From Kineococcus sp. NBC_00420 (lineage in GTDB: Bacteria > Actinomycetota > Actinomycetes > Actinomycetales > Kineococcaceae), in contig NZ_CP107930.1 of the NCBI RefSeq assembly GCF_036021035.1, positions 248,001 to 312,000 on the forward strand: DNA of 64,000 nucleotides. The letters run 5' to 3'. Both the position numbers and the translations under genes were made by a program. Shown here one piece after another: positions 5,250 to 62,680 of the stretch. Below the pieces are notes generated by a model that was not told the DNA's origin, made no database searches, and saw nothing but the letters and a program-made list of their open reading frames with translations. Position 1 is the first letter of the stretch. Each line of letters starts with the position of its first letter.

Positions 5250-5358
5250 CACGGCCTCCTCCAACTCGTCCTCGAACTGGTCCTCGAACTCGCCGAGGTC
5301 TTCGTGCCCGTGCGTGTGCTTGCTCTCGTGCCGGCCCGGTGCGTCACAGTCAGCTGCG

Positions 5359-6432: not shown

Positions 6433-6744
6433 TGCGGACCCCCTGGTGAGTGACAGCCGCGACGATTGCCAGGTGCACCCGCTGGCCGCGAAATCAGTCA
6501 TCGCGGAACCAGCTGCTAGTGGCCTCGTCGTCGAATCCAGTACCGCCGTCGATGGGCAGGGAGACCGGTAGGTTTCCTTGCTCGTGCGTCGGCGCTGGAG
6601 ATTCGACCTGATGAGGTCTGGGTGGTGCCTCGTGAACCGCCCCGCGGCTGCTTCAATGACAATTGCGGTGTGCCGGCGTTCTTATCAGCCGGCAACGTCG
6701 ATGACCGTATGCAACCCAAAACCGCCACCGGGCGTCAACACGGA

Positions 6745-6758
6745 TGCTCACATGAGCA
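6745..6758. promoter_or_regulatory. predicted SorC-type operator, copy 1
   Basis: TGCTCACATGAGCA is two perfect 6-bp arms (TGCTCA/TGAGCA) around two bases. The identical 14-mer occurs at 20717-20730 in front of the SorC regulator. It lies upstream of the xylose-type importer operon and about 100 bases from the IS1380 insertion. That it binds SorC is an inference from its recurrence. Confidence 0.65.
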
Positions 6759-6979
6759 GCGCAGGAGATGGCCAACGGGTTCCGAGAACCGATCTGGATG
6801 TGACTCATGACGAGCGATTCGGGTACACCACCAGGACAGGCCTCCCTCTCGCACTCAGCCTGGATCCACCGTCCCGTGGTGCTGCGGGGGCCAGTACGTG
6901 AGGCGGCGGGTGGCTTCTGACCTGCAACGATGGGACTTCTCTACGGTTCCAACGCAGCAGCAAGGAAGACACCCGCCAA

Positions 6980-8497
6980 ATGCAAGTCTCGCACGCCCTC
7001 CCCACCACCGCGGCGGCGTCCTCGATCGCCTTCGACGACCCAAACCTCATCGCCCACGCCGGCCTGGCCCCGGCCCTGCAACTGGCCCAGACCGCGGGCC
7101 TGCACGACCTGCTCGGCCAGCACCTCACCCTCGCCGGGCCCGGGTCGGCTAACGCTGCGGCCAAGGCCACCGGCCTGGTCGCCGGGATGTTGGTCGGCGC
7201 CGACAGCATCGACGACATGGACGTCCTGCGACACGGCGCGAACACGAAACTGTTCGACGACGTCCGCGCCCCCTCGACCTTGGGGACGTTCCTGCGGACC
7301 TTCACTCACGGCCACGTCCGCCAACTCGACGCCGTCGCGGCCCGGTTCCTGACCGGCCTGCAGACCACGACCGCCGCGGTTGGGTCACCGCTGCTGGCCG
7401 ATGCCGACCAGATCCTCTACGTCGATGTCGACGACACCATCCGCCAGACCTACGGCTACGCCAAGCAGGGCGCCGGATACGGCTACTCGAAAGTCAAAGG
7501 CCTGAACGCGATGCTGGTGACCGCGACCACCCCGGCCAGCACGCCGGTGATCGTGGGAACCCGCTTGCGAAAGGGATCGGTCGCCAGCGCTAAGGGTGCG
7601 CCGAAACTACTGGGCGATGCCCTGGCGACCCTCAAACGCACCGGCACCGGCACCGGCACCGGCACCGGCACCGGCACCGGCACCGGCACCGGTGCTGGTG
7701 CTGGTGCTGGTGCTGGTGCTGGTGCGGCTACCGGTGGCGGGTTGGTGATCGTGCGGGCCGATTCGGCCTACTACAACCACGCCGTGATCGCCGCCGCCCG
7801 CCGCGGCCGGGCCCGCTTCTCCCTCACCGCTCGCAGCAATCCCGCTGTCCGGCGGGCGATCGCGGGCATCGCCGACGATACCTGGACGCCGATCAAGTAC
7901 ACCGACGCGGTCTGGGATGAAGACGACCGGCGCTGGGTTTCTGATGCCGAGGTCGCCGAGACGACCTACACCGCGTTCACCGGCCGCAGGAAGGCTGAGC
8001 ACGTGAGGGCGCGGTTGATCGTCCGCCGCGTCAAACGGTTGAACCCCGCCGCTCTCGGTCGGGGGCAGGGTGAGTTGTTCGAGACCTATCGCTATCACGC
8101 GGTGTTCACCGACTCCCCGCTGCCGATGCTGGTCGCGGAGAAAGATCACCGCGCGCACGCGGTGATCGAGTCGGTGATCGCCGAGGCCAAGGACGGGCCG
8201 TTGGCGCATCTGCCGTCGGGGAAGTTCCAGGCCAACGCTGCCTGGTTGGTGTTGGCCGCGATCACGCACAACCTGACCCGAGCCATTGCCGCGTTGGCGG
8301 GGACGACCCACCGTCGCGAACGTGCTGGGACGATCCGGGGCAAGCTGATCAGCTTGCCGGCGCGGGTCGCGTTCTCGGCTCGGCGGCTGCGGTTGCACGC
8401 CCCGTCCGGCTGGCCCTGGCAGTCCGGCTTGGAGAACGTGTTGGCCGCCATCGTTGAAATCGACCGGCATCAGCCGGTCGTGACCCGCCGGATCTGA
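6980..8497 (+). CDS. IS1380-family transposase
   Basis: A 505-residue DDE transposase. The first catalytic Asp is in ILYVDVDDTIRQTYGY, the second in IVRADSAYYN, and the Glu is probably in VIESVIAEAKDGPLAHLPS. This order and spacing are typical of IS1380-family enzymes, which catalyse cut-and-paste movement of the surrounding element. An internal insertion of alternating Thr-Gly then Gly-Ala dipeptides (about residues 221-249) comes from a hexanucleotide repeat and lies just before the second catalytic Asp. It keeps the frame, so the protein may still fold with a flexible loop, but activity is uncertain. Confidence 0.93.
   Translation: MQVSHALPTTAAASSIAFDDPNLIAHAGLAPALQLAQTAGLHDLLGQHLTLAGPGSANAAAKATGLVAGMLVGADSIDDMDVLRHGANTKLFDDVRAPSTLGTFLRTFTHGHVRQLDAVAARFLTGLQTTTAAVGSPLLADADQILYVDVDDTIRQTYGYAKQGAGYGYSKVKGLNAMLVTATTPASTPVIVGTRLRKGSVASAKGAPKLLGDALATLKRTGTGTGTGTGTGTGTGTGAGAGAGAGAGAATGGGLVIVRADSAYYNHAVIAAARRGRARFSLTARSNPAVRRAIAGIADDTWTPIKYTDAVWDEDDRRWVSDAEVAETTYTAFTGRRKAEHVRARLIVRRVKRLNPAALGRGQGELFETYRYHAVFTDSPLPMLVAEKDHRAHAVIESVIAEAKDGPLAHLPSGKFQANAAWLVLAAITHNLTRAIAALAGTTHRRERAGTIRGKLISLPARVAFSARRLRLHAPSGWPWQSGLENVLAAIVEIDRHQPVVTRRI
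7640..7726 (+). repeat. hexanucleotide tandem repeat inside transposase
   Basis: Eight perfect copies of ACCGGC (7640-7687) and one ACCGGT run directly into five copies of GGTGCT and one GGTGCG. They encode alternating Thr-Gly and then Gly-Ala. Every unit is six bases, so changes in copy number preserve the frame. Confidence 0.95.
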
Positions 8498-8586
8498 GCA
8501 CTGCCCGACGCCCACCGCCCGAGAGGGCACGACCAGGAATCGCCGTGGAAGAGCCAACACCCGGTCGGCGGCTATCTGATGCCCTG

Positions 8587-8621
8587 CTCGTGGTGACCTG
8601 CCTTCGGCAGGTCACCACGAG
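8587..8621. terminator. strong hairpin with UUCG loop inside the IS1380 right end
   Basis: A 16-bp perfect stem (arms 8587-8602 and 8606-8621) closes on a C(UUCG)G-type loop. It lies about 90 bases after the transposase stop and inside the element. It could terminate the transposase transcript or shield it from outside transcription. No clear T-run follows. Confidence 0.6.
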
Positions 8622-8729
8622 CCCATCGGTCATTCGGTGGTGGATCCAGGCTCAGACGTAGCCGGACGGTTCGGGAGCGAGGACGAGACGCTATTTTTCT
8701 CAGGCGGACGCGGGGTCGCGGAACGTCAA

Positions 8730-8776
8730 AGGGCGGTCCGGGACACGGCGAGGAACGCCGTGTCCTGAACCGCCCT
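8730..8776. terminator. long two-part hairpin, probably the catabolic operon terminator
   Basis: Outer arms AGGGCGGT (8730-8737) and ACCGCCCT (8769-8776) enclose a perfect 10-bp inner stem (8741-8750 with 8756-8765, loop AGGAA). In the uninterrupted chromosome it would follow the SDR gene that ends at 10361. The IS701-like element now separates the two. Confidence 0.7.
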
Positions 8777-8779
8777 GAG

Positions 8780-10347
8780 CTTGACGTTTAACCTGCGCTC
8801 ACAGCTGGATGGGCAAAGTCAGCGGTCGTCGCGTGGTCTTGCCGACGTCGTAGCGCGGCGCCAGTCGCTGGTTTTGAGTTCCGGGTGGACGTCCTGGACC
8901 GGGTCGGGTGGGTTTCGGTGCGCGGGCCGGTCTGGCGACTGTCGTGCGGATGTTCCGAAACCCGCGGCGAACGCGTGCCGAGGTCAGGCGACCAGGTCGA
9001 GAACGCGGCTCCCACGGTCGGCGCAGCTCCTCGGACAAAGGGCGAGCCAAGCGCAGCTGCGTGTGCGCGACCAAAACCAGCCACGTCCAGCGATCAGCGG
9101 CCTCGGGAGCCCGGATCTTCGGGCGAGTCCAACCCAAGGTCTGCTTGAACATGCGGAAGGTGTGCTCGAGGTCGAAGCGGCGCAGGAACATCTGCCAGCA
9201 GGCGATGACCTCAGCGGCGTTCAGCCCGATGGCGGAGGACCACAGCCAGACCGGTGCAGCTTCGCGGTCACCGGGTAGATGATCGACCTGGAGGCGGATT
9301 ACCGTCCCTTCGATGACCGGTAGCTGCCCGTCGTGAGCCAGCCAGCTGCTGCGATGGGTCAGACGAGGATGGACCCGGTCCCAGCTGCTGGCTGCGGCGA
9401 TGCCGTAGCGACTGGTAGAGGTGGTCGTCTGATGAGTCGGAACGGGCCAGGTTTCGGGTCGGCGCAGCGCGAACGTAGCCCCGTGTCGAGGGGGACGTCC
9501 CACGGTTCTTCTGGATCTCGTCGGGAGGGGAAGGCGGAACACCCGGTCTGAACGCAGACGGCCCAGCAGCTGCACCGGCAGGTCGGCGAGCGTAAACGCC
9601 AGCCGGGCGATGTCGTAGCCGGCGTCGGCGACGATCAGCACGTCGGGATCACCTGGGCGCCACTGGCCGTCGCGGATCAGTCGAGTCACGACGGCCCGCA
9701 GTTGCTGGGCAGTAATCGCCATCGCGTCGTCATCAGGTCCCAGCCGCACGACGTCCAGGACGGCTGTCCACGATGACCTGCCTTCCTCCAGGGCGGCGAT
9801 CATTGAGTACTGCCATCCTGGGATCAGCTGCGCCGTACGCTTGGTTCTCCCGTAGACGTGGCAGAACAACCGGGCGGCGCTGGTGGTGGCATCCGGGCGC
9901 AGCCAGCAGGTGACGTCGACGGCCAAGACGAGTCGGCCTCGCTCGGTGCGCGGCAGTGGCAACGCCGCGAGATGATCGCGCAGCGTCTCGACGTCGAGAT
10001 TGCCACAACTCAGGGCGTCATACATTGCGCCGTGTCCGCGGCGATGTTCGGCGACCAGGCTGAGCTCGACCAGGCTGCGCACCGCGCCGTCGGTGCACAA
10101 CAACGCCTCGGTCAGCTCGAATAGTGCATCCGCTCGAGCCTGCAGGCAGCCGAAGAAGTCCCGACGAAACCGCGACAACACCTCGCGAGCCTCGACAGCG
10201 TCAGCATCTTGGGACACACTTCACCTCACGGCCTTGAGTTGGTTTACAGCGCCTCGACAACGCTGACGATCACCTCAAGGCCGCTTCGCTGTCCAGACCC
10301 GTAGTCTCCACTGTCCGGGCCAGCCTGCTCAAAGGTTAAACGTCAAG
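8780..10347 (-). mobile_element. IS701/IS4-superfamily insertion sequence
   Basis: The element is 1568 bp. Its inverted ends share CTTGACGTTTAACCT (8780-8794 and, inverted, 10333-10347). The 5-bp sequence CTGAG flanks both ends (8775-8779 and 10348-10352) as a target duplication. It landed between the SDR stop codon at 10361 and that operon's terminator. Family assignment rests on the transposase, so the exact family name is tentative. Confidence 0.88.
8799..10217 (-). CDS. DDE transposase (IS701/IS4-like)
   Basis: This 472-residue transposase fills the element. Candidate catalytic residues are Asp in LVLAVDVTCWLRPDA, Asp in VLIVADAGYDIA, and Glu in RRFDLEHTFRMFKQTLGW. The last has the E-(6)-K spacing of the IS4 superfamily. 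The C-terminal 60 residues are basic and Pro-rich. The ATG at 10217 is the first in frame after the right inverted repeat. The gene is complete and reads opposite to the neighbouring IS1380 transposase. Confidence 0.9.
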   Translation of the reverse strand: MSQDADAVEAREVLSRFRRDFFGCLQARADALFELTEALLCTDGAVRSLVELSLVAEHRRGHGAMYDALSCGNLDVETLRDHLAALPLPRTERGRLVLAVDVTCWLRPDATTSAARLFCHVYGRTKRTAQLIPGWQYSMIAALEEGRSSWTAVLDVVRLGPDDDAMAITAQQLRAVVTRLIRDGQWRPGDPDVLIVADAGYDIARLAFTLADLPVQLLGRLRSDRVFRLPLPTRSRRTVGRPPRHGATFALRRPETWPVPTHQTTTSTSRYGIAAASSWDRVHPRLTHRSSWLAHDGQLPVIEGTVIRLQVDHLPGDREAAPVWLWSSAIGLNAAEVIACWQMFLRRFDLEHTFRMFKQTLGWTRPKIRAPEAADRWTWLVLVAHTQLRLARPLSEELRRPWEPRSRPGRLTSARVRRGFRNIRTTVARPARAPKPTRPGPGRPPGTQNQRLAPRYDVGKTTRRPLTLPIQL

Positions 10348-10360
10348 CTGAGGTCGTGTC

Positions 10361-11131
10361 TCAGAAGACCGTGTACCCGCCATCGGTGATGATGACGGCA
10401 CCGGTGGAAAAGCTCGAGGCGTCCGAGGCCAGGTACACCACGCTGGCGGCGATCTCCTCGGGGGTGGAGTAGCGCTGCATCGGCGCGTCCTCGATCCACA
10501 TGCGGCGGAACTCGGGTTTGTCGACGGGGGCCATCTCGGTCTTGACGTACCCGGGGGCGAGGGCGTTGACCCGGATGCCCAGCGGGGCCCACTCCGCCGC
10601 GAGCGACTTCGTGAGCTGGTGCACGGCGGCCTTGGAGGCGTTGTAGACCGGCTGCAGCTGCGGGCGGTTCACGATCTCTCCACTGATGGAGCCGATGTTG
10701 ATGATGTTGCCGCCGCCGTTCTGCGCCATCCACTTCGCGGTGACGACGCTGGGCAGCCACACCCCCTTGAGGTTGGTGGTGATGACGTCGTCGTACTGCT
10801 CGTCGGTCACCTCCAACGCGGGGGCGTGCACGCAGGTACCCGCGTTGTTGACGAGGATGTCGAGGCGGCCGAACTGCCCAGTGACGGCAGCGACGGCGGC
10901 CTCGACCTCAAGGCGGGAGGTGACGTCCAGGCGGACGCCGAGGGTCTTGCGCCCGGTGGACGCAGCGATGTCCTCCGCGGCCTGGATCGACTTGGCCTCG
11001 TTGCGGGCGCCGATGACGACGTCGGCACCGGCCTCGGCCAGGGCCTGGGCGAAACCGCGGCCCAGGCCGGTGTAACCGCCGGTGACGAGGGCGACCTTGC
11101 CTTCGAGAGAAAACCTCTCCATGACGCTCAT
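10361..11131 (-). CDS. SDR-family oxidoreductase (sugar or polyol dehydrogenase)
   Basis: A complete classical SDR of 256 residues. It has the cofactor motif TGGYTGLGRGFA, NNAG, a catalytic Ser in INIGSISGEI, YNASK, and the C-terminal STGAVIITDGGYT. SDRs of this type oxidise sugars or polyols with NAD(P)+. The ATG at 11131 has GGAGG eight bases upstream; earlier in-frame ATGs do not. It is the last gene of the nine-gene cluster and starts 34 bases after the Zn-dehydrogenase at 11166. The IS701-like element begins just after its stop. Confidence 0.93.
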   Translation of the reverse strand: MSVMERFSLEGKVALVTGGYTGLGRGFAQALAEAGADVVIGARNEAKSIQAAEDIAASTGRKTLGVRLDVTSRLEVEAAVAAVTGQFGRLDILVNNAGTCVHAPALEVTDEQYDDVITTNLKGVWLPSVVTAKWMAQNGGGNIINIGSISGEIVNRPQLQPVYNASKAAVHQLTKSLAAEWAPLGIRVNALAPGYVKTEMAPVDKPEFRRMWIEDAPMQRYSTPEEIAASVVYLASDASSFSTGAVIITDGGYTVF

Positions 11132-11165
11132 TGCACTGTCCTCCATCAGAACTTCAGTTGGCACT

Positions 11166-12230
11166 TCAGTTGGTTGGATTCACGACGACGACGGCCTTCA
11201 TGCTCAGCGGGTCGGAGTCGGCGTTCAACGCGTCCTCGACCTGCTCCAGCGGGTAGCGGGCCGTCACCATGTCGTCGAGGTGGACGGCACCGGAGGTGGT
11301 GAGTTCGATGCCCCGGGGCCAGGTGTCGATGTAGCGGAAGACGCCGGTGAGGTTGATCTCGCGGGTCGCGATGAGCTGCACCGGAATCGGCATCTCCTCC
11401 GCGCCCAGACCGACGAGGACGACGGTCCCGCCACCGCGGGTGCTGTTGATCCCGGAGATCACCGCGGGCGTCGCCCCCGAGCAGTCGATGAACGCGTCGG
11501 CGCGGATCTCCGCGATCTCGGCCGCGTCCTGGACGGGGTGCAGCGCCCGGGTCGCCCCGAACCCGGTGATCCGCTCCCGGCGGGAGTCGACGAAGTCGGT
11601 GACGACCACGTCGGTGGCGCCCCGGGCGCGGACGGCCTGCGCAGCCATCGCCCCGATCGGGCCGGCCCCGGCGATCAGCACCTGGTCGCCCGGGCCGACG
11701 TTCGCCTTGTGCGCCGCCCAGAGCCCGACGCTCAGGGGTTCCAGCAGCGCCGCGGACTCGTCCGAGAGGCTGTCCGGCACGGTGTAGGCCTGGTCCGCGG
11801 GCGCGGTCACGTAGTCGCAGAACGTCCCGTCGAAGGGGGGCGTGGCGTAGAACTCCATGAACGGGCACAGGTTCGAGCGACCGGTCTTGCACTGCCGGCA
11901 CGTCCGGCACGGGACCTGCGGGTCGATCGCGACCCGGTCACCGAGGCGTTCCTCGGGAACTCCGCGCCCGACGCCGACGACGGTCCCGGAGACCTCGTGG
12001 CCCAGGACGATCGGCGCGGTGACGACCATGTCGCCGATGCGGCCGTGCTTGTAGTAGTGGACGTCGGACCCGCAGACGCCGACGGAACCGACCTTCACCA
12101 GCACCTCCCCGTCACCGGGGTTTGGCACCGACCGCTCCTGCATCTCGATCACCCCCTGTCGCAGCAGGACACTCGCGCGCATCGTCCTTGGAATACTCGT
12201 GGGGATTGAACTGGGGGCTGATGTGGTCAT
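11166..12230 (-). CDS. Zn-dependent polyol dehydrogenase, copy 1
   Basis: A medium-chain Zn dehydrogenase of 354 residues. Catalytic-zinc ligands lie in VGVCGSDVHYYKHG and LGHE. The structural-zinc Cys cluster is PCRTCRQCKTGRSNLC, and the NAD-binding loop is GAGPIGAMAA. The sequence type is sorbitol/xylitol dehydrogenase, which interconverts a polyol and a ketose. The start at 12230 (RBS GAGGAG) overlaps the stop of the epimerase-like gene by four bases. The protein is almost identical to the one encoded at 32569-33612, with about a dozen substitutions plus a different N-terminal 15 residues and C-terminal tip. Confidence 0.93.
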   Translation of the reverse strand: MTTSAPSSIPTSIPRTMRASVLLRQGVIEMQERSVPNPGDGEVLVKVGSVGVCGSDVHYYKHGRIGDMVVTAPIVLGHEVSGTVVGVGRGVPEERLGDRVAIDPQVPCRTCRQCKTGRSNLCPFMEFYATPPFDGTFCDYVTAPADQAYTVPDSLSDESAALLEPLSVGLWAAHKANVGPGDQVLIAGAGPIGAMAAQAVRARGATDVVVTDFVDSRRERITGFGATRALHPVQDAAEIAEIRADAFIDCSGATPAVISGINSTRGGGTVVLVGLGAEEMPIPVQLIATREINLTGVFRYIDTWPRGIELTTSGAVHLDDMVTARYPLEQVEDALNADSDPLSMKAVVVVNPTN

Positions 12231-12910
12231 CTGCGACTCTCCTCGGTGCCTCGACGGGTGGGCTGGGATTGGATCGATGGGCTCGAGGTGGGCCGCGCGA
12301 GCAGAGCACGCCCGGAGACCAGGTGCTCGACGCCGGCGGCGCGGCACTCTGCCTCATGGTGCGGTCCTACTCCCCCGTCGACCCCGATGGTGCAGTCGGT
12401 GGGGAGGTCGGCGACAGCGCTGAGGCGATTCAAGTCGATGCTCTGCGTGGTGCCCGGTTCGATGAGCATGACCAGCACTCCGTCCACCACACCATCGGCA
12501 AAGACGTATTCGGGCAGGGGCGTGCGGTTCAGTTCCGCCCACAGCTGTACGCCGTGGGCCTTCACGCGGTTCCCCTCACGGAGGCACCAGGCGCTGGGCA
12601 GCACCAGCCGGTCGGCGCCGATCGAGAGGACCTGGTCGAGCACGGCGGCGACTCGGTCGGTGCCCACGAGGTCGACGATGTGCACCTCAACTTTGGCCTC
12701 TGGCAAGTCTTGAGCTACCGCGGCGAGCTCATCCAGCCCCACCCCGAGCAAAGGCCCCTCGCCGGGCACGATGATGTCGACGTGGATCCACCAGCCGGCC
12801 TCGGCCAGCTGCTGTGCGGCGGCGTGTCGCTGCGCGGGCTGGACCGCGTACAGCGACCCGGCGTGCTCAACCGTGTCCGACCAGCCGGTGAGGTGTAGGG
12901 GTCCGATCAC
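12227..12910 (-). CDS. ribulose-phosphate 3-epimerase-like protein
   Basis: This 227-residue TIM-barrel protein keeps the metal-binding positions of ribulose-5-phosphate 3-epimerase: His and Asp in WIHVDIIVPGEG, His in VEVHIVD, and Asp in IGVDGGV. The surrounding motifs differ from housekeeping Rpe (no HxDxMDG), so it is a divergent paralogue such as an allulose-6-phosphate or other ketose-phosphate epimerase. It overlaps the isomerase gene upstream and the dehydrogenase downstream by four bases each. With the kinase and isomerase it would feed a ketose phosphate into the pentose phosphate pathway. Confidence 0.78.
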   Translation of the reverse strand: MIGPLHLTGWSDTVEHAGSLYAVQPAQRHAAAQQLAEAGWWIHVDIIVPGEGPLLGVGLDELAAVAQDLPEAKVEVHIVDLVGTDRVAAVLDQVLSIGADRLVLPSAWCLREGNRVKAHGVQLWAELNRTPLPEYVFADGVVDGVLVMLIEPGTTQSIDLNRLSAVADLPTDCTIGVDGGVGPHHEAECRAAGVEHLVSGRALLARPTSSPSIQSQPTRRGTEESRR

Positions 12911-13533
12911 GAGCTGGCCTGAGTGGGCGGCGCTGCGGTGGTTCCGGAGTGCCCGACGATCCCGGCGGGGTGCACGGCGACGACGTCGGCGGCGGAGTGA
13001 CCGCGGGCGTCCTTGAGGACGGCGGTGAGCGCGTCGCCCCAGGCCGCGGCCACCAAGGTACTCCCGGTGGCGACGAGGCCGTCGAGGTCGGCGTTGCTGG
13101 GACGCGTCTGCACGGTCACCACCGTGTCGGCGGCCGCGGCGAACGGGGAGTCCGGGGCCTCGGTGACCGCGATGACGCGCACGCCGCGTCCATGCAGCAA
13201 ACGGACCAGGTCGGTGAGCTCGCTGGAGCGCCCACCCTTGGAGAAGGCGACAACCAGGTCCTCAGGGGTGACCGCACCGGCCCCACCATGCAACGCATCG
13301 AGGGTTGGCAAGCTGAAGGCGGGGGTGCCGCACACCGAGAGGAGGTGGGCGAAGCGTTCGGCCATGATGCCGGAGGTTCCGGACCCGATGGCGACGATCT
13401 TTCCCTGCACGGCGAGCACGGCTGACGCCACCTCAGCGAAGACGTCGTCGATCTGGTCGGCCAGCGCAGCAATTGCTTCGGCCTGCCGGCGAACCTGAGC
13501 ACGGCCCGCAGCGATGAGCGTGGGCTTGTCCAT
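12907..13533 (-). CDS. SIS-domain sugar-phosphate isomerase (KpsF/GutQ-like, no CBS domains)
   Basis: A 208-residue SIS protein. Motifs match D-arabinose-5-phosphate isomerases: IGSGTSGIMAERFAHLL, DALHGGAGAVTPEDLVVAFS, KGGRSSEL and DARGHSAADVVAVHPAG. Standard KdsD/GutQ enzymes carry two C-terminal CBS domains, which are absent here, so this is the isomerase core alone. The ATG at 13533 has GGAGG upstream. Its likely role is an aldose-ketose phosphate conversion next to the epimerase, with which it overlaps by four bases. Confidence 0.82.
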   Translation of the reverse strand: MDKPTLIAAGRAQVRRQAEAIAALADQIDDVFAEVASAVLAVQGKIVAIGSGTSGIMAERFAHLLSVCGTPAFSLPTLDALHGGAGAVTPEDLVVAFSKGGRSSELTDLVRLLHGRGVRVIAVTEAPDSPFAAAADTVVTVQTRPSNADLDGLVATGSTLVAAAWGDALTAVLKDARGHSAADVVAVHPAGIVGHSGTTAAPPTQASS

Positions 13534-13975
13534 CCCGGCCTCCTTCTCGTTCGGTGTGATTCGTTCGGTGTGGTCCAACGGCACAGGCCGGACGCGCAGA
13601 TCATCGACCCAGATCGTGGACGCAGATCGTGGACGGCGCGGATTGGTGGGTGAGAGCCCCGCACGCGGGCGGCTGATGGTCACAGCCGGGTTCGGTACGG
13701 AGTATTTCTTGAGGTTTCGGGTCCAGGATTCCGCGCCCAGGTTTCGGGTTCGAGCTGCTACACACAGGCGACAGCAAGGCGATGAGGCACCGTTGTGGTG
13801 CGCCCTACCCCGTCCTTGGGCTTAGAGGTTGATGCGTACGTCACGCCTCAAACCATCAGTCTGGAGGCTGGCGATGGGCCCCGTTGACGGACAGTGCAAC
13901 AAGTCCATGAAGGACGTCGCCAGCACCATCACGTGGGTGGCCATCTCAACGATGACCCCCACGTGTGGTGGCTAT
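13534..13975. other. intergenic region within the catabolic cluster
   Basis: This stretch separates the binding-protein gene from the isomerase gene. I see no convincing gene, only a short direct repeat of AGGTTTCGGGT near 13721 and 13749. Its length suggests an internal promoter or processing site, but none is clear. Confidence 0.5.
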
Positions 13976-15058
13976 CTACTGACCGTCGATGCCCTCAGCG
14001 GCGATGTCGCCGGTCTTCAGGTTTTCCTCGGTCATCTCGGGGATCTGAGCGAGGAACGCCTCGCGGTCGGTGACGACGTGCTTGATCGCGATGTCGACGT
14101 TGTCCTTGGTGATGGCCGGCATGATGTAGACCGGGTCGGTGTCGACCTCCTCGCCGCGGGCGATCTTCGCGGCGACAGCGAGCCCGGCGGAGAGTTCTAC
14201 GGTGCCGTTCTGCAGCGAGGTGCCGATGAATTCCCCACTCTTGACGGCGTTGAGGCCGTCTTCGATGCCGTCGATGCCGACAATGGGGATGGTCTTGCCG
14301 GACTCCTTCAGCGCCTGCAGGGCGCCGAGGCCCATGTCGTCGTTCTGGGAGACGATACCGTTGATCTGGTCCCCGAAGGCGGAGAGCCAGTTCTTGACCT
14401 TGTTGACGGCCTCGTCGCGCTTCCAGTTGGCGGTGTCCTTGGCCAGGACCTTGATGTCGGGGTACTTGGCCAAGACCTGGTCGATCCCCTTGCCGCGATT
14501 GATCTCCCCCGAGCCGCCGAGCGGGCCCTGCAGGATGACGATGCTGCCCTTGCCGCCAAGAGTGTCGGCCATCATCTGCATCTCCTGGGCACCGGCGGCG
14601 ACGTCGTCGGGCTGGACGTTGCCGGCGATGTCGGTGGAGTTCAGCTCGGCGTTGACCGGGATGAGGGGGATGCCAGCGGTCTTGGCCGCCGTGACCTGGG
14701 GTTCGAGAGAGTCGGCCTGGACGGGGACGACGATGATGGCGTCGACGCCGGCGTTGACGTACTGGTCGACCTGGGAGGCCTGGGTGTTGACGTCGAGGCT
14801 TGCGGAGTTCCAGAGCAGCTCGATGTCGTTGGCGTCGGCGTAGGACTGCATGCCCTCCTTGCCGGCGGTGATGAACGAGCTCATGTCGTACACGCTGACA
14901 CCGATGCGGATCTTTTTCGCCCCGCCGGAGGCAGTGGAGTCGGAGCCGCTGTCGGCGTTGGGGTCACCGGCGCCACACGCGGTGAGCGCGAGGGCGAGGG
15001 TTCCAGCGCCGAAGGCGCCGGTGAAGAGGGTGCGGCGCGAGAACGGGGACTGCGACAC
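13976..15058 (-). CDS. sugar-binding lipoprotein, ribose-type ABC importer
   Basis: A 360-residue periplasmic-binding protein. The N terminus [19 protein letters not shown] has a twin-Arg character and ends in the lipobox LTAC. The mature part shows RbsB-like blocks: [19 protein letters not shown], then [15 protein letters not shown], then [10 protein letters not shown], then [15 protein letters not shown] and IVGIDG. It should deliver a sugar or polyol to the permease and two-domain ATPase encoded immediately upstream. It lies 152 bases after the permease stop, and expression may be boosted separately. Confidence 0.93.
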
Positions 15059-15210
15059 GGGGGTCTCCTTCGATCGAGGGTCGCGAACGGGTCGGTCACG
15101 GCGTCAGTGCTGTCGTGACAGGTTCTGCCCTGGTGGGTCCGGATGTGGTGGTTCACCGTGGTGAGGCTCAGGTTCAGGTCAACCGCGGCGAGAATCAGAC
15201 AAGGTGGGCG

Positions 15211-16215
15211 TTAAGCGCGGCGCTTGGTGGACCACACGTCGACCGCGACGGCAGCGACGATGAGGACCCCCTTGATGACGTCCTGCCAGTAGGCCGGCAC
15301 GAGTAGCAGGTCCAGGCCGTTGTTCAGGGTCTGGATGAGCAGCAGCCCCAGGGCGGTGCCCCAGACCGTGCCGCGACCACCCATGAGGCTGGCGCCGCCG
15401 ATGACGACGGCGGCGATCGCGTCCAGCTCGTAGCCCTGGCCGAGGTTGGGGGGGCCGGAGATGACGCGGGAGGCGAGCATGACCCCGGACAGCCCGGCAA
15501 GCAGGCCGGAAATTGCGTAGACGCTGAACAGGGTGCGGCGGGCATTGACGCCGGCGATCTCCGCGGCGACGCGGTTGCCGCCGACGGCATAGACGCGCAT
15601 GCCGTAAGAGGTTCGGCGCATCACGATCCCCAGCAGGATGATGCCGACGATCATGACGATGACGGGGATCTGCAGGCCGAGAATCTTGGTGTTCGCGATG
15701 GAGCCGAACTCCGCGGGCAGGCCGTTGATGGGCGCGCCGCCGCCGATGACGTAGGCGATGCCGGAGCCGGCCGTCAGCATCCCCAAGGTGGCGATGAATG
15801 GTGGCACATCGACCCGGGAGACGAGAATGCCGTTGATCGTGCCAGCCAGGAGACCGACCGCCATCGCGGAGAGAACAGTCAGCCACACCTGGCCCGGATT
15901 GGCCTTGGCCACCGCGGCTGATGTCATCGCGGCGACCGCGATGACCGAACCGACCGAGAGGTCGATGCCACCGGTGAGGATGACCAGCGTCTGCCCCAGC
16001 GCGATCAGGGCGAAGGGAGCGGCGGCGATGAGGATGTTCTGCAGGTTCTCCGGTGAGGAGAACCGCAGGGACCGATAGGAGAAGAAGGCGATGACCAGCA
16101 GCATCACGATGAGCATGGCGCGGCGGATCAGCTGAGCGATGATCCACTCGCGGGAGAATCGTCGTCGTTCTGCAGGAGCCGGGGTCGTCTCGAGCGGGGT
16201 GGTCGCGGTCATCAC
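15211..16215 (-). CDS. ribose-type ABC transporter permease
   Basis: A 334-residue RbsC-like permease with about nine hydrophobic segments. The family signature LILTGGIDLSVGSVIAV-like stretch appears as LVILTGGIDLSVGS, and the late loop GGASLMGGRGTVWGT is present. Its start overlaps the ATPase stop by four bases (16212-16215). It would be the membrane channel of the importer, whose substrate is probably the polyol or sugar degraded by the surrounding enzymes. Confidence 0.94.
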   Translation of the reverse strand: MMTATTPLETTPAPAERRRFSREWIIAQLIRRAMLIVMLLVIAFFSYRSLRFSSPENLQNILIAAAPFALIALGQTLVILTGGIDLSVGSVIAVAAMTSAAVAKANPGQVWLTVLSAMAVGLLAGTINGILVSRVDVPPFIATLGMLTAGSGIAYVIGGGAPINGLPAEFGSIANTKILGLQIPVIVMIVGIILLGIVMRRTSYGMRVYAVGGNRVAAEIAGVNARRTLFSVYAISGLLAGLSGVMLASRVISGPPNLGQGYELDAIAAVVIGGASLMGGRGTVWGTALGLLLIQTLNNGLDLLLVPAYWQDVIKGVLIVAAVAVDVWSTKRRA

Positions 16216-17789
16216 AGGTCCTTCGTCGGATCGCTGGAAGCCCCCGCGGCGGGCGGGGTCGGCTTCGATGCCAGTCCTGAACTGAGGCGGAAGATGAGTT
16301 CCTGCACGTCCGGGGAGTTGAGCTGATCGCGGGTCAGTTCCTCGACCACTCCTCCATCACGCAGGACGAGGGCACGGTGGGAGAGACCGAGCACCTCGGT
16401 CATGTCCGAGGAGGCCATGACGACGGCCATCCCCGCCGCAGCGAGCTCGGAGATGATGCGGTAGATCTCCGAGCGGGCGCCGACGTCGACGCCGCGGGTT
16501 GGCTCGTCCAGCAGCAGGACATCGACGTGCCCGGTGAGCCAGCGCGCGAGCACGACCTTCTGCTGATTGCCTCCGGAGAGGGTGCCGACGTCCTGGGATA
16601 GGCCCCGGCTGCGCAGGCGGACGGAGTCCATGGCCTCCCCCACCGCCCGGCGACGCGAGGCGCCCTTGAGCCAGCCGGCGACGGAGAACTTCGCCAGCCG
16701 GGGCAGAGTGCCGTTGTCAAGGACGGACAGGCCCATGACGGCCCCGGCGTGCTTGCGGTCCTCAGGCACCAGGGCCATGCCGGCAGTGATGGCGGCGGCG
16801 GGGTTCTTGCGCTTGACGTCCTGGCTGGCGACGGTGATCTGCCCGGCGGTGGTAGCGCGGACACCGAAGATTCCCTCTAGCAGTTCAGTACGTCCAGCCC
16901 CTACCAGTCCGGCCAAGCCGAGGATCTCCCCGCGGCGGACCTGCAGACTGACGGTGCCGTGTTGACCCACGACGGCCAGGTCGCGCACCTGCAGCACCTG
17001 TTCCGCCTCGGCGGGGACGGTGTGCAGGGGCGGGAAGAGGTCCTCCAGCTCGCGCCCGATCATCGCGGTGACGATGTCGTCGTCGGAGACGGCAGTCATC
17101 GCCTCGTCCAAGACCAGCCCGCCGTCGCGCAGGATCACGACGCGGTCGGCGAGGTCGCGGATCTCGGCCATCTTATGGGTGGTGAACATGATTGCCACCC
17201 CGGAATCGCGCAGCTGCCGCACGACCCGGTACAGGCCCTCGACCTCCCGCTCGGAGATCGCCGAGGACGGCTCGTCCAGCAGCACGACTTTCGCCCCGCG
17301 GCTGGAGTTCTTGACGATCTCGACGATCTGCTGCAGACCGACGGGCAGGGTGCCCATCCGGGCGCCGGGGTCGATGGCGACCCCGAACACCTCCAGCAGC
17401 TTCGCCGACTCCGACGTCATCCGGCGCCGGTCCAGGGTACCGAGCTTGCTCTTCAGCTCCCGTCCGACGAAGAGGTTCTCGTAGACGGTCATGTGCGCGA
17501 TCGAGGCGAGTTCCTGGGGGACGATCGCCACGCCGAGGCGGTGGGAGTCGCGGATGCTGCCGGCCTGCAGCTCTTCTCCGCGAACCAAGACGCTGCCCTC
17601 GTCGGCTCGGTACTGACCGGCGGCAATCTTCATCATCGTCGACTTGCCGGCACCGTTCTCCCCCGCCAGGGCGGTGACGGTGCCGAGTTGCAGAGACAGG
17701 GAGACGCCTTTGAGGACGGGGACGCCGCCGAAGGATTTGCGCAGGTCCCGGCACTCCAGGACGGCCGTCTGCACGGTGGTGGCGGTCAT
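16212..17789 (-). CDS. ribose-type ABC transporter ATPase (two domains)
   Basis: A 525-residue protein with two ABC domains, as in RbsA and XylG. Domain 1 has Walker A GENGAGKST and VVLLDEPSSAI; its signature LSGGQ is degenerate (MGTLPVGLQQ). Domain 2 lacks a canonical Walker A (LAGLVGAGRTEL) but has an intact LSGGNQQK and LLLDEPTRGVDVG. This asymmetry is normal for the family. The start overlaps the dehydrogenase stop by four bases, and the stop overlaps the permease start by four. Confidence 0.95.
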   Translation of the reverse strand: MTATTVQTAVLECRDLRKSFGGVPVLKGVSLSLQLGTVTALAGENGAGKSTMMKIAAGQYRADEGSVLVRGEELQAGSIRDSHRLGVAIVPQELASIAHMTVYENLFVGRELKSKLGTLDRRRMTSESAKLLEVFGVAIDPGARMGTLPVGLQQIVEIVKNSSRGAKVVLLDEPSSAISEREVEGLYRVVRQLRDSGVAIMFTTHKMAEIRDLADRVVILRDGGLVLDEAMTAVSDDDIVTAMIGRELEDLFPPLHTVPAEAEQVLQVRDLAVVGQHGTVSLQVRRGEILGLAGLVGAGRTELLEGIFGVRATTAGQITVASQDVKRKNPAAAITAGMALVPEDRKHAGAVMGLSVLDNGTLPRLAKFSVAGWLKGASRRRAVGEAMDSVRLRSRGLSQDVGTLSGGNQQKVVLARWLTGHVDVLLLDEPTRGVDVGARSEIYRIISELAAAGMAVVMASSDMTEVLGLSHRALVLRDGGVVEELTRDQLNSPDVQELIFRLSSGLASKPTPPAAGASSDPTKDL

Positions 17790-18856
17790 GACGGTTGACC
17801 GGCTCCGACGCGCACGACGATCTTGACCTGCTCGGGGTCAGCGGATGCGGCGTAGGCGGCAGCGACGTCTTCGACGTCAAAGGTGCCAGTGATGATGTCG
17901 GCGACCGGAACTACCCCTTCGCGCAGCATGGCGATGGCCTCCTGAACGTCTTCGCGGACGAACATCAGGCAGCCGAGGATGTCCAGCTCGCGGTCTTGCA
18001 CGAGGTCCAGCGGGATCGAGGTGGCGCCAGCGGCGACACCGACGGTCATGAGCTTGCCGCCCTTGCGCAGCAGGTCCACACCCTGGCGCACCGAGCTGTC
18101 CCGCGAGACGCAGTCGAAGACGACGTCGGCGGCACCGCCAAGCAGCATGCGCGCCTGCTCGACGGCGTCCTCGGCGGCGGCGTCGACCGCGCCGGCGGCT
18201 CCGAAGCTCACTGCGCGGTTCCGTTTGCTGCCGACGAGGTCAGCGGAGACGACCGCGCTGGCTCCGGCCCGCACCGCGCCGAGCAGGATGAACAGCCCGA
18301 TCGGGCCGGCACCCAAGACGACAACGCGCTTGTCCTTGAGCGCTCCGGCGCGGCGCACCGCGCGCAGCGGGGTGGACAGCGGTTCCACCAGGACCGCGGC
18401 GGTGTCGTCGAGGTCGTCAGGCAGGACGTGCAGGCGGTCGGCGGCGACGGTGAACGCGTCGGTCATCCCGCCCGGGGTCTGGCAGCCGATGACGTCGAGG
18501 ACGTCGCAAATGTTGTAGCGGCCCTCCTGGCACGGTGGGCACTTGCCGCAGGCCAGGTTTGGTTCCAGAACCACGCGGGTGCCGGGAGCAAACTGCGCGT
18601 CGACGCCCTCACCAGTAGCGGCGACGCGCCCGACAACCTCGTGGCCGGGGCGGTAGGGCAGGGTGATGAAGGGGTGCACTCCGCGGGCAGCGTGCAGGTC
18701 GGAGCCGCAGATGCCGACCAGCGTCGGTTCGAGGAGCACTTCGCCCGGCCCAGGGATCGGGCGGGCGTGGTGTTCGACCTGGATGTCGTCTAGGGAGTTC
18801 ACGACGACCTGACGAACAGTGCCGGTCGTCTGTGGCGCGGTCACTGCACTGGTCAT
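17786..18856 (-). CDS. Zn-dependent alcohol/polyol dehydrogenase
   Basis: A 356-residue medium-chain dehydrogenase. Catalytic-zinc motifs are VGICGSDLHAARG and PGHE, structural-zinc cysteines are NLACGKCPPCQEGRYNIC, and the NAD loop is GAGPIGLFILLG. It is only distantly similar to the dehydrogenases at 11166 and 32569. It would oxidise a polyol before phosphorylation. The ATG at 18856 has GGAG upstream. It is preceded by a 222-base gap that carries a SorC-type palindrome (19010-19023), so it probably heads a transporter-enzyme transcript separate from the kinase gene. Confidence 0.92.
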   Translation of the reverse strand: MTSAVTAPQTTGTVRQVVVNSLDDIQVEHHARPIPGPGEVLLEPTLVGICGSDLHAARGVHPFITLPYRPGHEVVGRVAATGEGVDAQFAPGTRVVLEPNLACGKCPPCQEGRYNICDVLDVIGCQTPGGMTDAFTVAADRLHVLPDDLDDTAAVLVEPLSTPLRAVRRAGALKDKRVVVLGAGPIGLFILLGAVRAGASAVVSADLVGSKRNRAVSFGAAGAVDAAAEDAVEQARMLLGGAADVVFDCVSRDSSVRQGVDLLRKGGKLMTVGVAAGATSIPLDLVQDRELDILGCLMFVREDVQEAIAMLREGVVPVADIITGTFDVEDVAAAYAASADPEQVKIVVRVGAGQPS

Positions 18857-19009
18857 GAGCAGGCTCCAGTCACGAGCGAGGTGGAGGGGTGGCGTGGGGG
18901 ACGAGGCGAGAGATGAAGTAGATGAGCGCGAAGCTCGAAGGAACGATCCTCGTGCTGCTGTGCACGTTGCATCAGGATCCAGGGTGGCTAGCTCGGAAGT
19001 CAAAGGAGC

Positions 19010-19023
19010 TGCTCACCTGAGCA
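19010..19023. promoter_or_regulatory. predicted SorC-type operator, copy 2
   Basis: TGCTCACCTGAGCA has the same 6-bp arms as the sites at 6745, 20717 and 20758. It lies 154 bases before the dehydrogenase start at 18856, in the gap after the kinase gene. Identity with the site at 20758 supports control by the same regulator. Confidence 0.68.
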
Positions 19024-19078
19024 CCAGTCGGCGCGTAAAGTATCTGTTCGACACACTTCCTAGCAGATCCAGCCCACC

Positions 19079-20638
19079 TCAGATGGACGGCCTGGAAAGG
19101 TTCCCCAACGACTGCCCAGAGGGCGGTGCACCCGGTGGTGCGACAGTTGGCACGATCGGAAGGCTTTCGTTGAACGCCAGGTTTTCGTTGAACGCCGCAA
19201 CCTGGGCGTACAGCCCTTCGGGATCCCGGTCAGTTGCTCGAGGTGTGGTGGTGAACAGGGTTCCCGGCCGCCAGGCGTCGCGGACAGAGCGCACATCGGC
19301 CCCCGAGGCGACAGCCGCGGCCTGCACGCAGGCTCCCCGTGCGGTCGCCTCGTCGGCGGCGGAGAGTTCGACTTCGCGATGCAACAAGTCGGCGAGCAGT
19401 TGCCGGTAGGCCACGGAGCGGGCACCGCCACCGACGACCAAGACGCGCCCGGTGGTGTCGACACCGTTGCGGTGCAAGTGCTGCACACCGCGAACGAGGC
19501 CGAGCAGCACTCCCTCGTGGGCGGCCCGGGCGATCTCCTCGCGGGTCGTGGCTGAGGTGATCCCGGCCAGCAACCCCCGTGCGTGCGGGAGGTCCGGTTT
19601 ACGCTCACCGTCGAGGTGGGCGACCAAAACCGGGCCCGTGCCGGGGCCAGCCGCCAAGGCCATCTCGGCGAGGGTCGCAATGTCGACCCCGAGGAGGCGG
19701 GCGAACTGGTCGGTGACACGAGCGGCGTTGAGGGTGGAGACCAGCGGCAGGTAGCCGCCGGTCATATCGGCCACGCCGTCCACGGTGCCGCTCGCGTCGT
19801 GCACGGGGTGGACGCTAGGGGTGAAGACGACCCCACTGGTGCCGAGCGAGAAGGTGAGGTCTCCCGGCTCGACGCCGAGTCCAAGAGCGGCTGCGTGCTG
19901 GTCCCCGCCGCCGGCGGCGACCGGGATCCCGGCCTGCAGCCCGAGTGCCTGGGCGGCCTGCGCGGAGAGGGTCCCGCCCGCCTCAGAGGCCGCCACGAGC
20001 CGCGGCAACGTGGAGCCCCAGTCCATTGAGGGGTCGACGAGGTCCAGCAGCTCCAGCAGGTAGTCCCCTGCATCTTCTTCGGCGCTCGCGTCGAAGTAAC
20101 CGGTGCCACTGGCCTCGGAGCGATCGGTGAACCGCTGCCCGGTGAGGCGAAAGTTCAGGTAGTCGTGCGGGAGCAGCATGCTGCGTACCCGGCGCAGGTT
20201 CTGGGGCTCGTGACGGGCCAACCATGCCACCTTGCCGATCGTGAAAGCGGCAGTGGGCACCGAGCCGGTGCGTCGAGCCCAGGTCGCGTCGTCGATCAGC
20301 TGACGCAACCGGATGACCTCGTCGGTGGAGGTGGTGTCGTTCCACAGCTTGGCGGGGCGGATAACCACCCCCTGCTCATCGAGAACGACCAAACCATGGC
20401 ACTGTGCAGCCACGGAGATCGCGATCACGTCGCCACCATGGATCCCGGCAGCGCTCAAGCCGGCGATGCAGGCGGTCTGCAGAGCCTGCCACCACGCTGT
20501 CGGGTCCTGCTCGCTGACCGGCCCGGTGGCCGGTGGGTGCGGTGCGCGCCCGGTGCCCACCAGCTTGCCGGTGTCGGCGTCGCGCAGTTCCGCCTTGCAC
20601 GACTGGGTGGAAGAGTCGACTCCCAATACCAGGCCCAT
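19079..20638 (-). CDS. xylB: xylulokinase-like FGGY carbohydrate kinase
   Basis: A 519-residue FGGY kinase. The N-terminal phosphate loop is LGVDSSTQSCKAEL, then VAAQCHGLVVLDEQG, with RPAKLWNDTTS for substrate contact. GGGDQHAAALG, LGTSGVVF and the late VVGGGARS complete the fold. The block order (LWND, LPHDYLNFRLTG, SGTGYFD) matches xylulokinase best, so the product is likely a ketopentose 5-phosphate. The ATG at 20638 has GGAGG upstream; the longer frame lacks support. It is the first minus-strand gene of the cluster, divergent from the SorC regulator, with two predicted operators between them. Confidence 0.85.
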   Translation of the reverse strand: MGLVLGVDSSTQSCKAELRDADTGKLVGTGRAPHPPATGPVSEQDPTAWWQALQTACIAGLSAAGIHGGDVIAISVAAQCHGLVVLDEQGVVIRPAKLWNDTTSTDEVIRLRQLIDDATWARRTGSVPTAAFTIGKVAWLARHEPQNLRRVRSMLLPHDYLNFRLTGQRFTDRSEASGTGYFDASAEEDAGDYLLELLDLVDPSMDWGSTLPRLVAASEAGGTLSAQAAQALGLQAGIPVAAGGGDQHAAALGLGVEPGDLTFSLGTSGVVFTPSVHPVHDASGTVDGVADMTGGYLPLVSTLNAARVTDQFARLLGVDIATLAEMALAAGPGTGPVLVAHLDGERKPDLPHARGLLAGITSATTREEIARAAHEGVLLGLVRGVQHLHRNGVDTTGRVLVVGGGARSVAYRQLLADLLHREVELSAADEATARGACVQAAAVASGADVRSVRDAWRPGTLFTTTPRATDRDPEGLYAQVAAFNENLAFNESLPIVPTVAPPGAPPSGQSLGNLSRPSI

Positions 20639-20716
20639 GCGTCCTCCGCTTCGTTGCGAACGGTTTTTCTTCCGCCACAGATGGTGAGCCCTTCGATGCT
20701 CACGGGTCAAAAGACC

Positions 20717-20730
20717 TGCTCACATGAGCA
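20717..20730. promoter_or_regulatory. predicted SorC-type operator, copy 3
   Basis: TGCTCACATGAGCA lies in the divergent kinase/regulator promoter. A half-matching TGCTCACGGGTCAA lies 20 bases away at 20697-20710. Pairs of operators at such spacing suit a tetrameric SorC regulator. Confidence 0.7.
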
Positions 20731-20757
20731 TCTGGGGTGCATCGAGGTACTGTTCCG

Positions 20758-20771
20758 TGCTCACCTGAGCA
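20758..20771. promoter_or_regulatory. predicted SorC-type operator, copy 4, next to the regulator start
   Basis: TGCTCACCTGAGCA, extended by one pair to GTGCTCACCTGAGCAC (20757-20772), directly abuts the ATG at 20773. Binding here would block initiation or translation of the regulator, which implies autorepression. Confidence 0.7.
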
Positions 20772-20772
20772 C

Positions 20773-21696
20773 ATGGGTCCGGAAGAACTGACTGAGATGG
20801 TGGCCATCGCCCGCCGCCACTACGTCGACGGCGTCTCACGCATCGACATCGCCACCGAACGCGGCCTCTCCCGCTTCAAGATCGGCCGGATCCTGCAGGC
20901 CGCCCTCGAAGCCGGCATCGTCCGTATTGAAGTCCGAGCCCCGGCCGGCATCGACTATGAGCTGTCAGAAGAGCTGCGCACCCGCTACGGCCTGCGGCGG
21001 GCGCTGGCCGTCCAGACCGCCGATGAGGCGCGGGTACGCCAGCCCCTCGGCCAGGTTGCGGCAGATCTGCTACGCGAGATCGTCACCACCGACGACGTTC
21101 TCGGCATCGACTGCGGCCGCACCCTGCGCGAGATGACCGGACACCTGGGCGGCATCGCCCATTGCGACGTCGTACAGATCACCGGGCTCGGCGGCATGGT
21201 GGGCGACACTGCCATCGACATCACCCGCGTGGTCAGCGAAGCCAGCGGCGGGCGCGTCTTCTCCCTCTTTGCCCCCATCGTCGTCGCCGATGCTCGGACC
21301 GCAGAAGCCATGCGCACCCACCGCGCCTTCCGCTCCACCTTCGCCGCCTACAGCAGGGTCACCAAGGCCGTCGTCGCCATGGGCGCCTGGTCCCAAGATC
21401 TCTCCCAGATCCCCGCTCTGATCAGCGAAGAAGAAACTGCACGGCTCGTCACCGCCGGCGCAGTCGGGGAAACTGGGGCACTGCTCGTCGACGCCGACGG
21501 TCGACGCGTCATCGACCTGGACTCCCGCCGGGTCGCCATCAGCGAATCGCAATTGCGCGCCGTCCCCGACGTCATCGGCGTCGGAGGCGGGCGGGGCAAG
21601 ACCACCGCCGTGCACGCCATCCTCAAGGCCGGCTTGCTCAATTCCATCGTTACTGACGTCCACCTTGCGCGGCGGCTCCTGCGCCGCCCCAGCTGA
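20773..21696 (+). CDS. SorC/DeoR-family sugar-responsive regulator
   Basis: A 307-residue regulator. The N-terminal winged helix reads RHYVDGVSRIDIATERGLSRFKIGRILQAA. The rest is a SorC-type sugar-phosphate-binding domain with VLGIDCGRTLREM, VQITGLGG, VVAMGAW, and GVGGGRGKTTAVHAILKAGLLNSIVTD at the end. Such proteins sense a phosphorylated intermediate, here perhaps the kinase product. I prefer the ATG at 20773 because the helix then starts about eight residues in; a GTG at 20737 is in frame. Transcription is divergent from the kinase gene, and four matching palindromes in the window define its probable regulon. Confidence 0.9.
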   Translation: MGPEELTEMVAIARRHYVDGVSRIDIATERGLSRFKIGRILQAALEAGIVRIEVRAPAGIDYELSEELRTRYGLRRALAVQTADEARVRQPLGQVAADLLREIVTTDDVLGIDCGRTLREMTGHLGGIAHCDVVQITGLGGMVGDTAIDITRVVSEASGGRVFSLFAPIVVADARTAEAMRTHRAFRSTFAAYSRVTKAVVAMGAWSQDLSQIPALISEEETARLVTAGAVGETGALLVDADGRRVIDLDSRRVAISESQLRAVPDVIGVGGGRGKTTAVHAILKAGLLNSIVTDVHLARRLLRRPS

Positions 21697-62470: not shown

Positions 62471-62680
62471 TCACCGTTCGGACCTGGAGATGCGTCGTCG
62501 TAGCAGGACCTGGACCGTCGCCGTCGCCGGCCAGCAGACCAACTGCACGCCGCCGAGGACCGCACCGACCGCGTTGCCTGCCCGAGCAAACGCGATGAGC
62601 TCCAGGGCCGCCACCATCGTCAGCCCCGCCCACGTGAGCAGCGCGTTACGGTGTCTGCGTCTGCTGACCAGTGGCGGCAC
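62471..62680 (-). CDS. small membrane protein
   Basis: A 69-residue frame with a GTG start. It has two hydrophobic segments (LTWAGLTMVAALELIAFARA and AVGAVLGGVQLVCWPATATV) and basic ends, giving an inside-positive topology. No family is recognised. It lies upstream of the broken W-W pair on the same strand. Confidence 0.45.
   Translation of the reverse strand: MPPLVSRRRHRNALLTWAGLTMVAALELIAFARAGNAVGAVLGGVQLVCWPATATVQVLLRRRISRSER

Follow-up and report, generated by a model that had tools for sequence, protein, structure and literature searches.

A predicted SorC operator and its promoter layout at a putative polyol locus of Kineococcus sp. NBC_00420

Gene content of the locus

The DNA analysed here (hereafter the window) is a stretch of 64,000 nucleotides from Kineococcus sp. 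NBC_00420, in which genes for two sugar-type importers, a kinase and several dehydrogenases lie next to a gene encoding a SorC-family regulator and are accompanied by four copies of the palindrome TGCTCAN2TGAGCA. These palindromes are very probably, as predicted from the comparisons below, the operators of the local SorC protein. A first-pass annotation had placed them at 6745-6758, 19010-19023, 20717-20730 and 20758-20771, two with a CA and two with a CC centre, and both the positions and the centres are exact; the fourth, said to abut the start codon of sorC, is indeed next to it but ends one base short, the ATG being at 20773. The regulator and the sites are as follows:

20773-21696, plus strand: SorC-family regulator of 307 amino acids (PF04198, 149.4 bits against a cut-off of 27; alignable to PDB chains of LsrR, DeoR and SorC)
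20758-20771, plus strand: operator site 4, separated from the sorC ATG by one base and the sole site without a TTGAC module; presumed autoregulation
20717-20730, minus strand: operator site 3, exact match upstream of the kinase gene and also in the region upstream of sorC
19010-19023, minus strand: operator site 2, exact match with module, upstream of the ADH1-rbsACB operon
6745-6758, minus strand: operator site 1, exact match upstream of the xylFGH-like operon, with a 6-bp gap and TTGAC

Moving away from sorC, the minus strand carries genes for a xylulokinase, a first zinc dehydrogenase (ADH1), RbsA, RbsC and RbsB, a SIS-domain isomerase, an epimerase-like protein, a second zinc dehydrogenase (ADH2) and a short-chain dehydrogenase, followed by two insertion sequences (IS) and by XylF-, XylG- and XylH-like genes:

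19079-20638, minus strand: FGGY kinase, xylulokinase-like (XylB, TIGR01312, 413 bits against an equivalog cut-off of 380.25)
17786-18856, minus strand: zinc polyol/alcohol dehydrogenase ADH1 (Pfam ADH_N and ADH_zinc_N)
16212-17789, minus strand: RbsA-type ATPase (profile matches; 82-93% identical at 4 of 6 relatives' loci)
15211-16215, minus strand: RbsC-type permease (profile matches; 95-96% at 3 of 6 relatives' loci)
13976-15058, minus strand: RbsB-type solute-binding protein (78-80% identical to the M. smegmatis MSMEG_3598/3599 structures)
12907-13533, minus strand: SIS-domain sugar-phosphate isomerase, KpsF/GutQ-like
12227-12910, minus strand: ribulose-phosphate-3-epimerase-like protein (weak match)
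11166-12230, minus strand: zinc dehydrogenase ADH2, sorbitol/xylitol dehydrogenase-like (91-94% at 4 of 6 relatives' loci)
10361-11164, minus strand: short-chain dehydrogenase (81-84% at 4 of 6 relatives' loci)
8771-10356, minus strand: IS701-like element (24-bp inverted repeats, 22/24)
6854-8655, plus strand: IS1380-like element (17-bp inverted repeats, 16/17; 97-98% copies at two further genomic positions)
5359-6432, minus strand: XylF-like solute-binding protein of the second importer (211.5 bits to the xylF equivalog, below its cut-off of 389.55, hence XylF-like only)
4344-5264, minus strand: XylG-like ATPase with one ABC domain (profile matches)
3034-4347, minus strand: XylH-like permease (profile matches)

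The substrate is likely to be a pentitol or a related polyol, as judged from the PDB matches of ADH2, whose closest entries are sorbitol, arabinitol and xylitol dehydrogenases and a ketose reductase, together with those of the RbsB-type protein to M. smegmatis solute-binding proteins (PDB 5hko, 4rs3 and 4rsm), a comparison that covers only the transporter part of the locus. The structure model of the RbsB-type protein is poor (mean predicted local distance difference test score, pLDDT, 55.8) and served only to find the titles of sequence-similar PDB entries. The ligands of the three M. smegmatis structures we take to be xylitol, a sorbitol and D-threitol. D-xylitol assimilation is recorded for a Kineococcus species in a published paper, and judging from the passage concerned not every member of the genus is expected to show it.

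The locus had been described as two separate sugar gene sets. Two sets are present, but they are not separate, since they form one colinear minus-strand locus split only by the two IS, without which the distance from the short-chain dehydrogenase gene to site 1 would be about 215 bp, as reckoned from the coordinates. The sets were presumably once contiguous. The relatives lack the xylFGH-like genes, and target-site duplications of the two IS were sought without any being cleanly resolved: CTCAG flanks the IS1380-like element on either side, yet its copies elsewhere align over CTCAG too. An ISL3-type transposase gene at 22059-23015, directly downstream of sorC, places an IS on one flank of the locus as well as inside it.

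Rarity of the sites and their association with SorC

The absence of any other full match, claimed from scanning the sequence, holds for the window: allowing 0 or 1 mismatch brings up nothing more, and a single 2-mismatch site lies at 62627. The proposed search of the whole genome returned 4 exact matches in 5,434,400 bases, all at this locus, and none for the reversed pattern, where about 0.15 exact sites per genome would be expected from the base composition of the window and dinucleotide shuffles of the window yield 0.00. With one mismatch allowed, the genome holds 6 extra sites against 5 for the reversed control, so that only the exact sites stand out; the one-mismatch sites look like chance and were dropped as candidate operators. 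The nearest of them, at genome position 245094 and 2.9 kb beyond the window, falls within an open reading frame (ORF) with GAF/ANTAR domains. It may be mentioned that an array of genes for GAF, GAF-ANTAR and GAF-MCP proteins, possibly sensors and antiterminators, is found close to a STAS protein a little beyond the window (genome 240001-252000, L136; ORFs at 319-2028, 4079-5170, 5638-6414, 6607-7455 and 7452-8345 of that piece). In the literature searched, where most subscription journals are outside coverage, no title or abstract among the matches listed concerned the TGCTCAN2TGAGCA motif.

The SorC protein aligns to full-length chains of LsrR, DeoR and the sorbitol operon regulator from its residues 6-10 onward and carries the helix SRFKIGR within a DeoR/LsrR-type N-terminal helix-turn-helix; in the profile search no Pfam helix-turn-helix model scored above its cut-off. 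The best PDB sequence match, nearly full length (residues 7-304), is to LsrR, the SorC-family regulator of autoinducer-2 uptake in enterobacteria, whose locus contains other genes. LsrR controls an Rbs-like importer and an FGGY kinase, and its ligand differs.

Within 11 genomes of the genus there are 13 exact sites, 4 here and 9 in six others, 12 of which lie at most 1.8 kb from the sorC start, while the 13th, site 1, is 14 kb off in the same locus. When orthologues of SorC are defined by at least 70% identity, a site is present in 7/7 genomes with an orthologue and in 0/4 without (G014, G106, G120 and G134; Fisher p = 1/330). Position -56..-43 from the sorC start holds an exact site in 5 of the 7 loci and position -15 in three, the window having both. 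Upstream of sorC in some relatives the palindromes extend into a series near -77, -56, -35 and -15, with a step of 20-21 bp; the series has 3, 0, 2 and 2 mismatches in G078, is weaker in G048 and is reduced to -56 and -35 in G162.

The genome encodes two further SorC-domain proteins, and the sites could in principle bind one of these or another protein, SorC being adjacent by chance. We regard this as very improbable, because the presence or absence of the site follows the SorC orthologue in 11/11 genus genomes and because the paralogue has an operator form of its own. This second SorC, at genome 3251583-3252494, is 36% identical to the first and has a counterpart in all 11 genus genomes, in each of which CGCTCAN2TGAGCG is found upstream of its gene. 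Over the 11 genomes that pattern has 14 occurrences and its reverse 1. Of the three sites beyond those of the paralogue, one lies before another SorC gene (G148), one upstream of a XylF-like gene in the present genome, and one is in G048. The outermost base pair (TGCTCA against CGCTCA) may thus separate the two SorC regulons, the recognition helices of the two paralogues reading SRFKIGR/SRFKVGR and SRFKVAR. Upstream of the third SorC-domain gene, no 6+6 palindrome with a 2-bp centre was found in a 410-bp stretch.

The site in the present genome (C1:2403117-2403130, L194) precedes the gene of a second XylF-like binding protein, whose aligned start is some 120 bp away. In three genomes of another genus (g18, family f17) the CGCTCA form, too, lies just upstream of SorC genes (L208, L212 and L213), with a xylulokinase-like gene adjoining that SorC in L213 and 7 kb away in L212.

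Beyond the genus the association is looser. In a sample of the order the exact pattern occurs in 47/198 genomes (the source and ten genus members included), at 71 sites against 5 for the reversed pattern. Among the 58 exact sites in the 187 genomes outside the genus, 14 precede the aligned start of a SorC gene by 41-139 bp, where about 0.02 would be expected on an assumed figure of 3 SorC genes per genome; the others may be chance occurrences, parts of other regulons or distant targets. Plasmid-borne relatives of SorC matched in 646 records, and none of the four loci inspected has the exact motif; in a Rhodococcus opacus plasmid locus a 2-mismatch site lies upstream of its 46% identical SorC. 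That the palindromes of the window arose by chance, for which one could adduce the shortness of the motif and the 44/58 order matches outside the genus without a SorC match nearby, can practically be discounted: 4 are found where 0.15 are expected, all within 14 kb and upstream of locus genes, and their uniqueness in the genome, their co-occurrence with SorC in the genus and the fixed spacing to TTGAC described below contradict it.

A regulon of two importers with autorepression had been proposed from the sequence of the window. The comparison supports a SorC regulon here that takes in both importers, the kinase and the regulator itself, since the sites are unique in the genome, track the SorC orthologue in the genus and precede SorC genes in 14 of 58 cases outside it; in the six relatives the xylFGH-like importer is no part of it. 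Repression of sorC by its own product is presumed; three of the four sites lie just upstream of a -35 element, a place from which an activator could work as well.

The predicted operator-promoter module and its probable mode of control

The first-pass annotation had the sites in the right places and lacked the minus-strand promoter that appears to belong to each of sites 1, 2 and 3. On that strand each of the three is followed by 6 bp and then by TTGAC:

20705-20710, minus strand: TTGACC, the inferred -35 element before the kinase gene (-10 CACCAT at 20681-20686)
18998-19003, minus strand: TTGACT, the inferred -35 element of the site 2 promoter (-10 GATCCT at 18974-18979)
6733-6738, minus strand: TTGACG, the inferred -35 element before xylF (18-bp spacer, then TTGCAT at 6709-6714)

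TTGAC at exactly 6 bp accompanies 12/13 sites of the genus, including all 9 of the six relatives, and 0/58 outside it, the exception in the genus being site 4. In 11 of these 12 modules nAnnnT follows TTGAC after 17 or 18 bp, while gap pairs clear of 17 and 18 give at most 2. When up to 4 mismatches in the palindrome were allowed, with the 6-bp gap and TTGAC retained, the window and ten genus loci yielded no module beyond the 12 exact ones (control gaps from 0-19 give at most 3). In a class sample the composite pattern was found in 1/394 genomes, the window's own, at its 3 places; the listing of this sample includes no other genus member. An origin of the three modules by duplication of one promoter was rejected, as they share only 9-12 of 60 positions upstream and 26-35 of 110 downstream; as they show no clear similarity beyond the operator and TTGAC, either selection maintains the spacing or it has arisen repeatedly.

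A candidate second half-site follows in most modules. At the kinase promoter it is TGAGCA, 20 bp downstream, and in 9/12 modules a half-site with at least 4/6 matches is present at +20/+21. The mean match there, 4.17/6, is the highest of all spacing pairs save the palindrome with itself, the next best being that at -8, which is the palindrome's own left arm (mean 4.0).

The conserved TTGAC might be read as part of a longer operator instead of a -35 element, as TGAC resembles TGAGC and as some modules have, in TTGACn-nn-TGAGC, what looks like a degenerate further half-operator at a distance of 20 bp. This is quite unlikely in view of the nAnnnT found at 17-18 bp in 11/12 modules and in at most 2 at clear spacings, a spacing as in a sigma-70-type promoter.

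The arrangement recalls that of another SorC-family member, the DeoR protein of Bacillus subtilis, at the dra-nupC-pdp operator. According to a paper on the family (PMC11229326), DeoR and CggR bind as tetramers on two half-operators, and the DeoR operator spans -60 to -21, with a palindrome upstream of the -35 element and a direct repeat downstream of it; counted on the operator sequence printed there, the repeat is 21 bp from its partner. A DeoR-like operator layout is likely, though not proven, at the Kineococcus promoters. The systems differ in the half-site (TGCTCA here, TTGAACA for DeoR), in the number of promoters (three targets and its own here) and in the genes controlled, which are polyol genes here and deoxynucleoside genes for DeoR, and a tetramer and an effector are only proposed in the present case.

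On this basis SorC would bind as two dimers, the first on the palindrome just upstream of the -35 element and the second on the weaker half-operator 20-21 bp downstream, which overlaps the -35 element. RNA polymerase would thereby be excluded until the phosphorylated sugar that the kinase produces, possibly xylulose 5-phosphate, released SorC. Through the three module sites SorC would govern three minus-strand units, namely the kinase gene, the ADH1-rbsACB-isomerase-epimerase-dehydrogenase set and the xylFGH-like operon, and site 4, directly before sorC, would give autocontrol. The sequences themselves show the sites, their uniqueness, their joint occurrence with SorC and the fixed geometry; from these we infer SorC binding, the tetramer, repression and the operon limits, and from the gene content the effector and the substrate. 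The explanation as a whole, comprising SorC operators, module promoters, repression by a pair of dimers and release by a phosphate, is in our judgment probable; its component of repression by a dimer pair seated over the palindrome and the -35 element, if considered separately, is reasonably likely.

Several points weigh against this account. The centre of the operator, about 49 bp upstream of the start as reckoned from the hexamers, is also a typical position for an activator. The -10 hexamer at site 1, TTGCAT, is without the A of nAnnnT, the downstream half-site at site 1 is poor (2/6), and two modules of relatives likewise are without one (3/6 and 1/6). Furthermore, the genus loci are related and are not independent trials, and 44/58 sites outside the genus are without a SorC match in the fetched stretch of about 1.5 kb on each side.

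SorC could also be imagined as an activator or dual regulator which, bound just upstream of the -35 element, aids the polymerase at promoters with poor -10 elements. The fixed distance of 6 bp in 12/13 sites is as one would expect for contact with polymerase, and the -10 hexamers are weak; the -35 elements, in contrast, agree with TTGACA in 5 or 6 of its 6 positions, the half-site overlaps or follows the -35 element in 9/12 modules, and B. subtilis DeoR, according to PMC11229326, represses from a similar layout. Activation is thus the less favoured mode and appears unlikely. The local circuit looks ordinary for a member of this known family, apart from a promoter layout of unusual rigidity and a second importer that seems to have come under its control.

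The added importer and possible growth of the regulon

The loci of the six relatives show which parts of the gene set are shared. Those of G162, G048 and G078 contain SorC, a divergent short-chain dehydrogenase, RbsA-RbsC-RbsB, a short-chain dehydrogenase, ADH2 and a short-chain dehydrogenase; that of G148 has SorC, a short-chain dehydrogenase, ADH2 and a short-chain dehydrogenase, RbsABC not being found in 37 kb; and the short contigs of G032 and G092 carry SorC and a short-chain dehydrogenase, with RbsA also in G032. At these six loci no match to the SIS isomerase, the epimerase-like protein or XylF was detected, and the only match to the kinase, at 27%, is in Kineococcus vitellinus (L005). 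Over the complete genomes of the genus, XylF has a best match of 39% and the kinase one of 51%, so that neither the importer nor the kinase has a close orthologue in the genus. Downstream of the XylH-like gene, window positions 2152-2613 hold a fragment of a short-chain dehydrogenase that looks N-terminally truncated (profile positions 72-218 of 236).

The second importer resembles ROK-linked xylFGH importers of Actinobacteria (L208-L210), with 52.6-54.4% identity for XylF and 70.7-71.9% for XylG over the aligned parts; at the threshold used, 27/394 class genomes have a match. In the three loci of other genera that were inspected (L208-L210), a ROK-family gene adjoins xylF each time. Here, by contrast, a SorC operator precedes the importer, and no ROK domain was found around xylFGH among the ORFs scanned, which were not all of the ORFs. 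Since related importers stand beside ROK genes and xylFGH has no close orthologue in the genus, the simplest reading of these sequences, and a likely one, is a transfer of the importer from control by ROK to control by SorC. The fuller proposal, in which SorC captured a ROK-paired importer through a module that emerged independently at a non-homologous promoter, with the paralogue insulated by one outer base pair, is put forward tentatively, as its chances fall somewhat short of even.

If true, it would show that a regulon can grow by the rewiring of promoters together with the insulation of two sister regulators, and the added importer would be a compact case of such growth. With operators that differ in one outer base pair, the two SorC paralogues would offer a test of the family's DNA-specificity code. 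For a SorC regulator of Actinobacteria the locus supplies an operator, a layout of promoters and a set of targets, all of them testable.

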